Below, piece after piece: positions 5,801-53,156 of a DNA stretch of 64,000 nt (position 1 is its first letter; each line of letters begins with the position of its first letter). The DNA is from Phycisphaerae bacterium (GTDB taxonomy: Bacteria; Chloroflexota; Anaerolineae; 4572-78; J111). Where the stretch lies: assembly GCA_028285035.1 (NCBI GenBank), contig JANQQF010000017.1, positions 33,448 to 97,447 of the forward strand, in the 5' to 3' direction. Position numbers and translations under genes: made by a program. The notes under the pieces are model-generated. The model saw only the letters and a list, made by a program, of their open reading frames with translations, made no database searches and was not told the origin of the DNA.

Positions 5801-6469
5801 ATGAATGGTGTGCACGATATGGGGGGGATGCACGGCTTTGGTCCGATTGAGTATGAGGAAAATGAGCCTGTGTTTCACGAGGCCTGGGAAGGCCGTGTTT
5901 ATGCGATGAGAACCCAAACACGGATTTCAATACCTGGTGGGTTTCGCTTTGCTGTGGAGCGGATGGGACAGTCTCTCTATTTGGCCTCAAATTATTATGA
6001 ACGTTGGCTTCATTCGGGAGTCCAGGGTTTCATTGAAGCGGGTGCTTTTTCGCAAGAGGAATTTGATGAGCGACTTTCATATTTTCGTGAGAATCCCGAG
6101 GCAATCCCGAAAAAAAGTGAAGACTCAGAAGCGGTAGAACGGGCCATCAAAAGTCTTTGGTCCTCGCGATCCCATCGCAGGGAGATAGATGTGAAGCCCT
6201 CTTTTGCCATCGGAGATACGGTCAGGGCGAAGAATATTCATCCAGCGGGCCATACCCGTTTGCCTCAATATGCTCGCGGTAAATCTGCCGTCATTGTCAA
6301 TTATTATGGGGTTCAAGATTTTGATGATGCGATGTCGGCTGGACGTGGCCCAGATCCGCAACCATTGTACAACGTTCGTTTTGAAGGCCAAGAGCTTTGG
6401 GGTGAGTCAGCCGAGCCAAATAGTGCCGTTTATTTGGATATGTGGGAAAGTTATCTTGAGGCGGCATAA
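5801..6469 (+). CDS. nthB: Nitrile hydratase, beta subunit
   Basis: A 222-residue nitrile hydratase beta subunit. The family N-terminus MNGVHDMGGMHGFG is exact in style, followed by EAWEGRVYAM. The C-terminal SH3-like half contains IGDTVRAKNIHPAGHTRLP, YARGKSAVI and the end region VRFEGQELWGESAE. With the alpha subunit it forms the heterodimer that hydrates nitriles to amides. The order beta, alpha, activator is that of cobalt-type enzymes such as the Rhodococcus rhodochrous J1 operons. It starts 37 bases after the CoA ligase gene. No amidase is present in the window, so the fate of the amide is unknown. Confidence 0.95.
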   Translation: MNGVHDMGGMHGFGPIEYEENEPVFHEAWEGRVYAMRTQTRISIPGGFRFAVERMGQSLYLASNYYERWLHSGVQGFIEAGAFSQEEFDERLSYFRENPEAIPKKSEDSEAVERAIKSLWSSRSHRREIDVKPSFAIGDTVRAKNIHPAGHTRLPQYARGKSAVIVNYYGVQDFDDAMSAGRGPDPQPLYNVRFEGQELWGESAEPNSAVYLDMWESYLEAA

Positions 6470-6482
6470 TCCACTTAGCTTG

Positions 6483-6517
6483 ATCATAAATCATAAATCC
6501 AAAGTCGTAAATTGATG
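6483..6517. repeat. Short heptad tandem repeat between nthB and nthA
   Basis: Five 7-base units in phase: ATCATAA, ATCATAA, ATCCAAA, GTCGTAA, ATTGATG. Only the first two are identical and the rest are degenerate. They resemble the short tandem repeats seen between genes of some bacteria. The nthA ribosome binding site (GAGGAGAACC) follows directly. Confidence 0.5.
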
Positions 6518-6540
6518 AAGATGATGAGGAGAACCTAATT

Positions 6541-7173
6541 ATGACCCAACCCCACATCAGTAACCATATTGATGTTGAAATGAACGCAGCCCTCCGTACC
6601 AAAGCTCTGGAGGCCCTGCTGGTTGAAAAGGGACTGATTTCAACCGATGTTATCGATGAAGTGGTCCGTCAATATGAACAAGACATTGGCCCGCTTAATG
6701 GAGCTAAAGTTGTGGCCCGTGCCTGGAAAGACCCAGAGTACAAAGCCCGCTTACTATCAGATGGCACTGGGGCTATTGCTGAGCTGGGATTTCTGGGCCG
6801 ACAGGGAGCGGATATGGTCGTTTTAGAAAATACTCCAACCATTCATAATGTGGTGGTTTGCACCTTATGTTCCTGCTATCCCTGGCCCGTTCTGGGCTTG
6901 CCGCCCAATTGGTATAAATCATTTGCCTATCGCTCGCGGGTGGTGCGGGAGCCAAGGGCCGTCCTCAAAGAGTTTGGGCTTGATTTGCCCGACTCAGTGG
7001 AGGTCCGGGTGTGGGATAGCAATTCAGAAGTGCGTTATATGGTCCTACCAGAGCAACCTGCTGAATTAGAGCAACTCAGTGAGGCAGAATTGATCCCCTT
7101 GATTACGCGTGATGCCATGATTGGAGTGGCGAAAATAGAAGCCTCACAAGAGCAAGCGGGAGGTATATCGTGA
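6541..7173 (+). CDS. nthA: Nitrile hydratase, alpha subunit (cobalt type)
   Basis: A 210-residue alpha subunit carrying the metal-binding claw CTLCSC at residues 107-112 ([19 protein letters not shown]). In this family CTLCSC goes with non-corrin cobalt and CSLCSC with iron. The second and third Cys-side groups (C110-S111-C112) are the ones oxidised to sulfenic/sulfinic acids in known enzymes. Downstream [16 protein letters not shown] is typical of the subunit. Thiocyanate hydrolase gamma subunits share the motif, but the separate full-length beta subunit argues for nitrile hydratase. The stop codon overlaps the GTG start of the activator gene. Confidence 0.95.
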
Positions 7174-49365: not shown

Positions 49366-49551
49366 TTAAACTGTTTTACCTTCAACTGAGTCGTCAGAAT
49401 CTTCGTCTTTGCCGCCTACAGCTTCGCGGAATTCACGAATAGATTGACCTAGGGCTGACCCAACACCAGCTAGACGGCTACCGCCAAACAAAATAATCAC
49501 AATTACTAAAATAATCAGCCATTCCCAACCACCTAAGCCACCAAAACGCAT
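49366..49551 (-). CDS. tatA: Twin-arginine translocase subunit TatA/TatE
   Basis: A 61-residue protein with the TatA layout: short N-terminus with [18 protein letters not shown] as the single membrane segment, the conserved FG pair, an amphipathic helix ([15 protein letters not shown]) and an acidic tail (DEDSDDS). TatA forms the pore for folded-protein export. No tatC is adjacent. Small size is normal for the family. Confidence 0.92.
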
Positions 49552-49669
49552 AATAAACTCCTTAAAAATCTATTCATCAAAATAAGATAAAAAGACATAA
49601 ATTTTGATACTAGAGGGACATTATAGCATTGTAGATAGGGGGAAGCAAAATTACCAAATATTTGCCTCT

Positions 49670-49698
49670 TTGTCATTTACGTTGGCCCGATTTATAAT
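49670..49698 (+). promoter_or_regulatory. Sigma-70-type promoter of upp and the selenoprotein gene
   Basis: TTGTCA (49670-49675), a 17-base spacer and TATAAT (49693-49698). The upp start is 47 bases downstream. Confidence 0.8.
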
Positions 49699-49745
49699 GA
49701 GCCAGTTTGTAATTTTGAATATCGTTTAACTGTATGGAGAGAAAT

Positions 49746-50375
49746 ATGTCAGGCAATGTGTATGAGTCACAACATCCCTTGGTAAAGCATAAACTTACAA
49801 TTTTGCGCGATAAGGAAACGACACCGAAAAAATTTCGCGAACTCATCCGCGAAATCGCAATTCTATTGGCCTACGAGGCCACCCAAGATTTAGCCCTTGC
49901 AGATTCTGAGGTAGAAACACCCCTAGCAATGGCTCCTGGGCATTTATTACAAGAACAAATCGGCTTGGTGCCTATTCTCCGAGCTGGTTTGGGGATGGTT
50001 GAAGGAGTATGGGAAATGATGCCAGGGAGCGAGGTTTGGCATATTGGCCTTTTCCGAGATGAACGAACCTTGCAACCCGTTGAGTATTACAACAAATTGC
50101 CTATTGGGCCGACAGTGCAACTCTGTATTGTGTTAGATCCTATGCTGGCTACAGGAGGGTCAGCCACAGCAACGGTCGATTTACTCAAACGTTGGGGAGC
50201 TAAACGCATCAAATTTATGGGAATTATTGCCGCCCCTGAAGGCGTTCAAGCGATGCAAGAGCAACACTCTGATGTAGATATCCATCTTGGCGTGATTGAT
50301 GAGCGACTAAATGAGATTGGTTACATCGTTCCTGGTTTGGGTGATGCGGGTGATCGACAGTTTGGAACAGGGTGA
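49746..50375 (+). CDS. upp: Uracil phosphoribosyltransferase
   Basis: A 209-residue UPRT. The family start is [19 protein letters not shown]. The middle has [21 protein letters not shown] and the PRPP loop is [18 protein letters not shown]. It ends in [13 protein letters not shown], a strict UPRT signature. It makes UMP from uracil and PRPP for pyrimidine salvage. ATG 49746 is chosen because GGAGAG sits 4 bases upstream; the ATG at 49734 has no such site. The AhpD-like selenoprotein gene starts 4 bases after its stop. Confidence 0.96.
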
Positions 50376-50379
50376 GCGA

Positions 50380-50937
50380 ATGACGGCCTGGATTGAAATC
50401 ATTTCCGAAAATGATGCCGAAGGCGATTTGGCTGAACAATATAGTAAGCTGATTGAACCGTGGGGTGGGGTTGATAATATTCTTAAAATTCATAGCCTGA
50501 ACCCGGCCACACTAGAGGCTCACGTGTTGTTATACAAAACAGTGATGTATGGGAAATCACCTATCAAACGTCCCCAACGAGAGATGATTGCCGTTGTGGC
50601 CTCAGTCGCCAACCATTGTGAATATTGAATTAAACATCATTCGGCTGGTCTTAGCCGATTGGTAAAAGACGAGGCCTTGATTCTAGCTTTGCAAACGGAC
50701 TATCGACAAGCCAAGCTTAGTCCTCGTAATCGAGCTATGCTTGATTATGCGTATAAATTGACGTTAACCCCCTGGGATATGGTTGAAGGTGATGTAAAAA
50801 TCCTGCGTGAACACGGTTTTTCAGATCGCGCCATTTTGGATATCAATCAAATCACAGCTTACTATGCCTATGTCAATCGTTTAGCTGATGGTTTAGGGGT
50901 TCCTTTGGAGGATTTTTGGCAGGCGATTGAGAAATAA
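50380..50937 (+). CDS. AhpD-like peroxidase-related selenoprotein (in-frame TGA as Sec at codon 83)
   Basis: A 185-residue protein if the TGA at 50626-50628 is read as selenocysteine. Both halves lie in one frame with no shift. The family (carboxymuconolactone decarboxylase/AhpD, peroxidase-related branch) has a redox CxxC in NxCxYCxxHH; here it reads NHCEY-U-IKHHSAGL, so Sec replaces the second Cys (C80, U83). Directly downstream is a hairpin with a GGTCTT loop that starts 18 bases after the TGA, the spacing I recall for E. coli fdhF. The C-terminal half is intact (LSPRNRAMLDYAYKLTLTPWD, ITAYYAYVNRLADGLGV). It would reduce peroxides or act as a disulfide oxidoreductase. No selA, selB or selD is in the window. 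Confidence 0.88.
50641..50658 (+). promoter_or_regulatory. Bacterial-type SECIS hairpin
   Basis: Perfect stem TCGGCT (50641-50646) and AGCCGA (50653-50658) with the six-base loop GGTCTT. It begins 12 bases after the TGA and the loop begins 18 bases after it. SelB-binding SECIS loops in bacteria carry G at the first or second loop position; E. coli fdhF uses GGUCU. Confidence 0.85.
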
Positions 50938-52083: not shown

Positions 52084-52995
52084 CTAACTGCTTTTTGCCT
52101 TGTCATTATCAGCCTCATCTTCAAGTGCTGGTAAATCTGGAAAATCTCTACCTACCTTGCTGCCGCTTTCGTTGGTTGGAACCTCATCAGATACTTCCAC
52201 CTCTGAACTAGTTTCATCAACAGAGGCATCCCATCTATCTTTTGCGGTATCATTAGAGTTTTCCTCATCTAATGGGCTTTCCCAACTTTCTTCATCAACC
52301 TCAGCCACGCTATCATCATCAAATTTATCGTCTGCCAAAATGGGTGTGGGATCTAACTCAGTCGTTTCCTCTATCTCTCTGGGAGCCTCATCACTTGCCA
52401 GTAAATCATCCTCCACGGGTTCTTCAATCTCTAGTGTCGATGGGGGGATCTCAATAGGGGCTTCGGCAGTTTGACCCTCCAAATCAAAGGCCCAGCTTTG
52501 TTGTTCTGCTTTGACCATATCGATAACCAACTTTTTGGTTTCGTGACCTGGCTCTGTAACAATCTCACGAGAAATGAGCTTGTTTTTTGAGAGTGGCCCA
52601 GCAATCATGGGGCGGGTTATGGTAAAGCCTAATACTTGACCAGTAGTTGCGAAAAGCGCATCATCAATGTAGCCAATTTTTGTACCACTGGAGGACTCTA
52701 TTTCACGACCTTGTATCTCTGATCGTCGAACCCACGTATTAAATCCAGCCAAATCTTGTCCTTTAACAATGATGTCTGACTCGTATACTAAAATAACATC
52801 TTCTCCATAAAGCTGAACCGCATTGTGTTGCACAATCAGAGGACTTCGTCTTAACAATCCTTCGGTGCCAAGATAAAGGCCGACGATTGCCCCCACATTG
52901 TTATCCAGATACACATCTTTAACATCACCAACGATACGGCCATCAGCCACGCTGATGATTTGTTTGTTAATTAGTTTATCGGCAGCTAACATCAA
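52084..52995 (-). CDS. PRC-barrel domain protein with acidic tail
   Basis: A 303-residue protein. Residues about 5-75 and 85-160 look like two PRC-barrel domains (KLINKQIISVADGRIVGDVKDVY at the start; SSGTKIGYIDDALFATTGQVLGF in the second). The remaining 130 residues are highly acidic and of low complexity (EEPVEDDLLASDEAP, DDSVAEVDEES) and probably unfolded. PRC barrels occur in RimM, photosynthetic reaction centre H subunits and cell-division or envelope-linked proteins of actinobacteria. The role here is unknown. It precedes tRNA-Val on the same strand. Confidence 0.8.
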   Translation of the reverse strand: MMLAADKLINKQIISVADGRIVGDVKDVYLDNNVGAIVGLYLGTEGLLRRSPLIVQHNAVQLYGEDVILVYESDIIVKGQDLAGFNTWVRRSEIQGREIESSSGTKIGYIDDALFATTGQVLGFTITRPMIAGPLSKNKLISREIVTEPGHETKKLVIDMVKAEQQSWAFDLEGQTAEAPIEIPPSTLEIEEPVEDDLLASDEAPREIEETTELDPTPILADDKFDDDSVAEVDEESWESPLDEENSNDTAKDRWDASVDETSSEVEVSDEVPTNESGSKVGRDFPDLPALEDEADNDKAKSS

Positions 52996-53156
52996 TCATT
53001 TTCTCCAAAATGCATGAATTTTTCTGGCGGTACCCAGATCACTAAGATGTGGAGCTAAATATCTGAGGTTATGAAGTGCAATATTAAGCGGTTGGGTGGT
53101 CTGTAGTATACAGAGGTTGGGCTTGAGTGTCAATCGAGGATGATATTTCAGGTTTG

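Follow-up and report, generated by a model that had tools for sequence, protein, structure and literature searches.

A probable selenocysteine form of the AhpD-like, peroxidase-related enzyme (TIGR01926) encoded directly behind upp in an Anaerolineae-type Chloroflexota bacterium

The window, that is, the whole 64-kb stretch of DNA that was analyzed, contains a gene for an AhpD-like protein that lies directly behind the uracil phosphoribosyltransferase gene and whose frame is crossed by one TGA codon. The features of this locus are as follows.

49734..50375, forward strand: upp, uracil phosphoribosyltransferase (TIGR01091, 261 bits against a cut-off of 208.35)
50380..50937, forward strand: predicted selenoprotein gene, AhpD-like/peroxidase-related enzyme (TIGR01926) with Sec83; 185 residues in one frame with a single TGA
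50581..50640, forward strand: active-site stretch with Glu68 (50581-50583), Cys80 (50617-50619), Tyr82, Sec83, and His87 (50638-50640)
50626..50628, forward strand: in-frame TGA, codon 83, predicted to be read as selenocysteine at the second position of CxxU
50641..50658, forward strand: predicted bacterial SECIS hairpin, stem TCGGCT/AGCCGA, loop GGTCTT, with GGTCT 18 nt past the TGA

The AhpD-like frame runs from an ATG at 50380 to a TAA at 50935-50937, and the TGA at codon 83, which falls in the motif NHCEY-U-IKHH (i.e., Cys80-Glu-Tyr-Sec83), is its sole internal stop. The hairpin is composed of six pairs between TCGGCT (50641-50646) and AGCCGA (50653-50658), which enclose the loop GGTCTT (50647-50652). 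A sequence-only reading of this DNA had described one continuous frame broken only by the TGA at 50626-50628 and followed, 18 bases on, by the GGTCTT loop of a six-base-pair hairpin; the frame, with its 185 residues, and the hairpin are both confirmed. The end of upp, whose own stop codon is a TGA (50373-50375), is separated from the start of the selenoprotein gene by 4 nt. This placement of upp directly upstream is also found in three other genomes, G619, G486, and G611 (loci L111/L131, L112, and L113), and a divergent tatA-like gene lies ahead of upp in the window (the three genes together span 49366-50937), an order that by eye is the same in G619. Reading window ORFs of at least 150 amino acids by eye, we saw no ahpC beside the selenoprotein gene, and a full-text search of a PMC subset, judged by title and start of abstract, found no paper on the pairing of upp with a selenoprotein gene.

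A scan of the window for read-through frames (at least 120 codons, one or two TGA codons, and at least 40 codons on either side) returned ten frames, of which by eye only 50380-50937 resembles a gene with an internal selenocysteine codon. The frame at 52084-53133 on the reverse strand was rejected as an upstream extension of an existing ORF across a TGA. Elsewhere in the window, three ORFs between 39231 and 49088 (39231, 45107, and 48069) share cohesin/dockerin-like repeats by eye, for example DPRAD.N.DG..NVQDLS, and ORF 41657, which lies between them, has a related first half; two ORFs at 5801-7173 resemble, again by eye, the beta and alpha subunits of nitrile hydratase.

The window protein is a member of TIGR01926 (peroxidase-related enzyme), scoring 153 bits against the curated cut-off of 81.8, and it also matches the Pfam CMD model (PF02627; 49.9 bits, cut-off 23). 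Its structure model (pLDDT 96.5) has an AhpD-type fold, with 3c1l as the best match in the PDB (TM about 0.88). All five AhpD relay residues are present with AhpD spacing as Glu68, Cys80, Tyr82, Sec83, and His87, and the corresponding positions are E, C, Y, U or C, and H in all 81 sequences composed of the window and 80 related loci, a count for which the script pattern itself required C, Y, and H or R, with all 81 fitting it.

These 80 loci are the best of at least 578 relatives found in a scan with one genome per species. The codon at the Sec site is TGA in 74 of them, TGC in 5, and TGT in 1. The in-frame TGA aligns with Cys of homologues, which is a mark of selenoprotein genes, and it does so at all six non-TGA loci, in agreement with the proposal of the sequence-only reading that the TGA stands where the family has its second redox Cys. 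In an evenly drawn sample of 400 Chloroflexota genomes, 166 match the protein. The eight best matches listed (48-62% identical) all contain an internal TGA, and one of the eight has a TAG as well; among the matches listed, the highest without a stop is 45% identical, and both kinds occur lower down. The window protein shares 65 of 80 residues before the TGA and 84 of 102 after it with the product of the nearest gene, which is that of G619; pN is 0.112 and 0.120, respectively, and pS is saturated at 0.82 and 0.84. As estimated from these sequences, selection is equally strong before and after the TGA. The same comparisons bear on the possibility that an ordinary Cys enzyme is encoded here and that the TGA arose either from faulty sequencing or assembly or from a genuine nonsense mutation that has broken the gene. 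The base is known from one assembly and a Cys form does exist (6 of the 80 loci); however, the same codon is TGA in 74 of the 80 loci, which come from many phyla, the nearest gene also has TGA at 72% DNA identity, conservation downstream of the TGA equals that upstream, and a hairpin accompanies the TGA and not the Cys codon. We reject an error or nonsense mutation, in the main on the conserved TGA, and regard it as very improbable.

The hairpin directly follows the TGA and has a G in its small apical loop (GGTCTT), as specified for bacterial SECIS elements in an excerpt of PMC1088965. The 51 nt around it have a predicted stability of -13.6 kcal/mol (z -3.55), which 1 of 200 shuffles equals, while a 91-nt stretch around it is of unremarkable stability (z -0.95; 34 of 200 shuffles equally stable). 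When the window's own codons are recoded synonymously, 139 of 20,000 recodings match the observed stem score. Counting both strands, the window contains 2,767 TGA trinucleotides; three are followed by a stem of at least 5 bp with GGNCT at +18, and only one of these three (50626) sits in frame within the ten read-through frames. These counts agree with the earlier view that a random stop together with such a hairpin is very unlikely. The likeness to fdhF that had been proposed with it also holds, as the GGTCT of Escherichia coli K-12 MG1655 fdhF (TGA at codon 140) likewise starts 18 nt past the TGA.

Among the relatives together with the window, and leaving out L003 because of an N in it, a hairpin defined by a stem of at least 5 bp and a loop start at +14 to +19 occurs in 64 of 74 TGA sequences versus one of six Cys sequences; by this definition, 10 of the 74 TGA sequences are without a hairpin. 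GGNCT at +18 to +22 is present in 54 of 74 TGA sequences versus none of six Cys sequences, and in 54 of 74 TGA sequences at most 5% of synonymous recodings match the stem score. The sequence and register of the stem vary around one loop position: among 75 TGA sequences, a run of five pairs is found in register i+j=36 in 31 and in register 40 in 27, and the window's own register, 41, occurs in 4. The hairpin of G619 is weaker in the window's register; by eye a GGCC/GGCC stem surrounds its GGTCT, and RNAfold gives a different fold. At Sec+7/+8, the 75 TGA sequences encode Gly-Leu (55), Ala-Leu (9), Asn-Leu (7), Asp-Leu (3), or Gly-Phe (1), and all six Cys loci encode Ala-Leu. Together, the hairpin, the conservation of the TGA, and the equal pN on both sides of it indicate that the gene is most naturally read as being translated through the TGA.

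A clade of Chloroflexota TGA sequences (L017, L018, L021, L023, L025, L026, and L072; support 100/99) is without the GGTCT hairpin at +18. In its members, the loop is AGTT and lies at +28, and 6-8 of the 8 positions that flank it are paired; of 68 other TGA sequences, 4 have at least six positions paired in this register. In L017, the +28 hairpin includes a change from C-G to T-A, and throughout the clade the protein has Asn, not Gly, at the place of the former loop. The SECIS of this clade looks as if it has shifted downstream.

Under translation table 11, the AhpD-like frame is reported as a 105-aa ORF, which begins at an earlier ATG, and a 92-aa ORF. Taken literally, this would mean two proteins, an 82-residue N-terminal piece from the ATG at 50380 to the TGA and a 92-aa piece from a TTG at 50659, and public data hold products that would fit such a division: in an alignment of the query with the best 120 of 366 proteins found, 17 of the 121 have no letter at the Sec column and 16 of these 17 are only 101-106 aa long. 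Against this, the split would separate Cys80 from His87 within the five-residue active site, unbroken Cys homologues of full length exist, and a plain stop has no need of a hairpin as good as one reached in 139 of 20,000 recodings. Two separate genes are rejected on these grounds and seem to us highly unlikely. The gene very probably encodes a single protein rather than two hypothetical proteins, and reading its internal stop as selenocysteine implies selenium use in a Chloroflexota lineage.

The remaining letters at the Sec column of the 121 aligned proteins are W in 53, C in 46 (query included), G in 3, R in 1, and L in 1, while Cys80 and Tyr82 are kept in all 104 rows of the protein set that have a letter there and position 87 is H in 118 and R in 2. 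The Gly, Arg, and Leu entries count against Sec as letters of the protein set, not of DNA. The 53 Trp entries (of 121, query included) would be expected if UGA had a different amino-acid meaning in the host, such as Trp under code 4, in which case position 83 would be Trp. Four of the proteins have a locus at least 88% identical to them, and three of these (P0030, P0034, and P0037) cover the Sec site; all three have W there and are 93-99% identical to L004, whose DNA at this codon is TGA, so their W comes from the gene caller. In addition, window ORFs end normally at TGA, as upp does at 50373-50375, the alternative to this codon in relatives is Cys, and the relatives have Sec machinery. We reject Trp at position 83 for these reasons and consider it exceedingly improbable. 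Most of the W and G entries probably arose when gene callers applied a genetic code that assigns TGA to Trp or Gly. The sequence-only reading had expected a standard gene caller to split the gene in two, which table 11 does, but splitting is not the sole error, as the TGA is also read as Trp. Because many TGA-form genes are stored in protein databases with a Trp or in pieces, a survey based on called proteins overlooks them, and the W-bearing homologues (P0002-P0121 set) will escape any motif search built on CxxC.

When the 64-kb window was searched with ARAGORN and Rfam, the one hit was a tRNA-Val and no tRNA-Sec was found, and no sel genes were seen in the window (ORFs of at least 150 aa by eye; family HMMs on ten other ORFs). 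The AsnRS encoded in the window is closest to those of Anaerolineae-type Chloroflexota (names in the best 120 hits: Anaerolineae, Anaerolineales, Chloroflexi, and Ardenticatenia), and among 396 genomes of one class the nearest by this protein are G680 (84%) and G619 (83%). The gene of G619 is 82% identical (72% for DNA), keeps the TGA, follows upp, and shares a contig with the AsnRS gene; in G680, the best match has 42% identity and likewise a TGA. G619 encodes selA (567 bits), selD (364 bits, with a TGA of its own), and tRNA-Sec (65 bits). No SelB over the family cut-off was found in G619, only a fragment, a C-terminal SelB piece at a contig end that is 67% identical to the SelB of G646. Of the 20 genomes whose AsnRS is nearest to that of the window, G619 among them, 18 have selA over cut-off, 17 selD, 15 tRNA-Sec, and 12 SelB; the protein has a match in 7 of them and none in 13, and the matches of at least 60% (G619, G486, and G611) all have TGA. 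In 14 control genomes, the numbers over cut-off are 2 for SelB, 1 for selA, 2 for selD, and, depending on the search, 3 or 5 for tRNA-Sec, which makes the tRNA-Sec cut-off lenient when used alone. From the machinery in these related genomes, we infer that the host probably has Sec machinery as well.

A similar search covered the genomes of 50 of the 80 loci, 44 with the TGA form and 6 with the Cys form. SelB is over cut-off in 39 of the 50 and tRNA-Sec in 40. The 44 TGA-form genomes include 37 with SelB, 37 with tRNA-Sec (best hit in each at least 55.9 bits, cut-off 47), and 39 with at least one of the two, and the 6 Cys-form genomes include 2 with SelB and 3 with tRNA-Sec, that of G048 (49.3 bits) being near the cut-off of 47. 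Given that two of the six Cys-form genomes have both SelB and tRNA-Sec, the machinery alone is no marker of the Sec form. Neither component was over cut-off in five of the 44 TGA-form genomes (G002, G007, G016, G031, and G049), which may be incomplete assemblies. With a closer SelB query, the first 58 residues of SelB were found in G007, where a contig ends, and no convincing match came up in G002, G016, G031, or G049. The G049 locus, L080 (CP070792.1), is from a 3.2-Mb Gemmatimonadota MAG labelled as a chromosome and has the TGA form with the hairpin, without SelB or tRNA-Sec over cut-off.

Our phylogenetic analysis used 98 of 100 rows; L103_Sec and L108_Cys, most likely wrong-strand translations (branch 5.5), were excluded, and a count of four Sec/Cys changes on the tree includes these two excluded rows. 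The window gene pairs with that of G619 (100/99), and the two fall within a set of eight, all Sec (95/93), together with G486, G611, and four Neomarinimicrobiota sequences. Fourteen of the 15 usable Cys rows are in one loosely supported set with nine Sec rows (83/89), and the fifteenth, L090, is placed next to a Sec row, on a long branch. The grouping of Neomarinimicrobiota with the window gene points to transfer between phyla, and the mixing of phyla more generally suggests horizontal transfer, in a tree without a resolved root or deep forks. The four Neomarinimicrobiota loci (L001, L003, L004, and L005) are closer to the window gene in the tree than most Chloroflexota sequences are. A broader picture, which we consider possible but rather doubtful as a whole, is that in the main clade of TIGR01926 Sec is the usual and perhaps ancestral state in many phyla with most Cys forms apart on the tree, that this state is hidden in public sets by Trp readings and cut genes, and that the SECIS dictates Gly-Leu (GGU-CU) at Sec+7/+8, versus Ala-Leu in Cys loci.

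Based on these comparisons, we conclude that the gene almost certainly encodes the selenocysteine form of a TIGR01926 AhpD-like (peroxidase-related) enzyme in an Anaerolineae-type Chloroflexota bacterium, and that it is very probably one selenium-containing enzyme of antioxidant type whose internal stop is read as selenocysteine. From what is established for selenocysteine insertion in bacteria, SelB carrying Sec-tRNA(Sec) would bind the hairpin as the ribosome meets the UGA at 50626, and Sec83 would be inserted, a step to which the conserved signals and the genomes of relatives point. In the resulting protein, predicted to be all-helical, Cys80-x-x-Sec83 would form the redox centre, with Glu68, Tyr82, and His87 as the proton relay. 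Sec83 may attack a hydroperoxide or other oxidised substrate, Cys80 would then resolve the intermediate, and a thiol reductant would recycle the selenenyl-sulfide. We take Sec83 to be the attacking rather than the resolving residue, after Cys133 of Mycobacterium tuberculosis AhpD. This redox chemistry is putative for the window protein and follows knowledge of the family.

The closest solved structures, both by sequence and by the fold of the model, are 3c1l, 2pfx, 6k40, 2prr, and 2oyo, which are like the window protein in fold (TM about 0.86-0.90) with 24-37% sequence identity in structural alignment; in the printed alignments of 3c1l and 2pfx, Cys and not Sec stands at the site, as CYYC and CFYC, respectively. 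An excerpt of PMC3141380 describes the five proton-relay residues of AhpD in PA0269 and in M. tuberculosis AhpD; the PA0269 relay (Glu36, Cys48, Tyr50, Cys51, and His55) has the same spacing as that of the window protein. As described there, both proteins have the relay set that is also found in the window protein, Glu-x11-Cys-x-His/Tyr-Cys-x3-His; however, they have Cys where the window protein has Sec, and their overall sequences are far apart from it. Two other (seleno)protein families match weakly, the AhpD-related CFYUT family NF041238 (46.5 bits, far under its cut-off of 175) and the YciW-related family NF053654 (31.6 bits, far under its cut-off of 310).

The sequence-only reading had proposed a new selenoprotein: a CxxU AhpD-like selenoprotein with a SECIS is strongly supported, but the family has been reported since 2005. 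In the portions of the literature covered, a 2005 paper describes an AhpD-like protein (COG2128) in 27 Sargasso Sea sequences with CXXU and a predicted SECIS (PMC1088965), the 2008 GOS survey lists 299 "AhpD-like 1" sequences (COG2128, CxxU; PMC2398784), and a 2026 review gives an AhpD-like protein under TIGR01926 with CxxU, citing the 2005 paper (PMC13188914). A full-text search of a PMC subset, judged by title and start of abstract, found no paper on an AhpD-like selenoprotein in Anaerolineae. As far as these excerpts go, the family of 2005 and 2008 is like the window gene in its label, in the Sec at the second place of the motif, and in the SECIS just past the UGA, a link made by family label and motif. 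This kind of selenoprotein has thus been known since 2005, and the window gene is a well-supported new example of it, distinguished from the known AhpD-like family as an Anaerolineae-type Chloroflexota member encoded directly behind upp.
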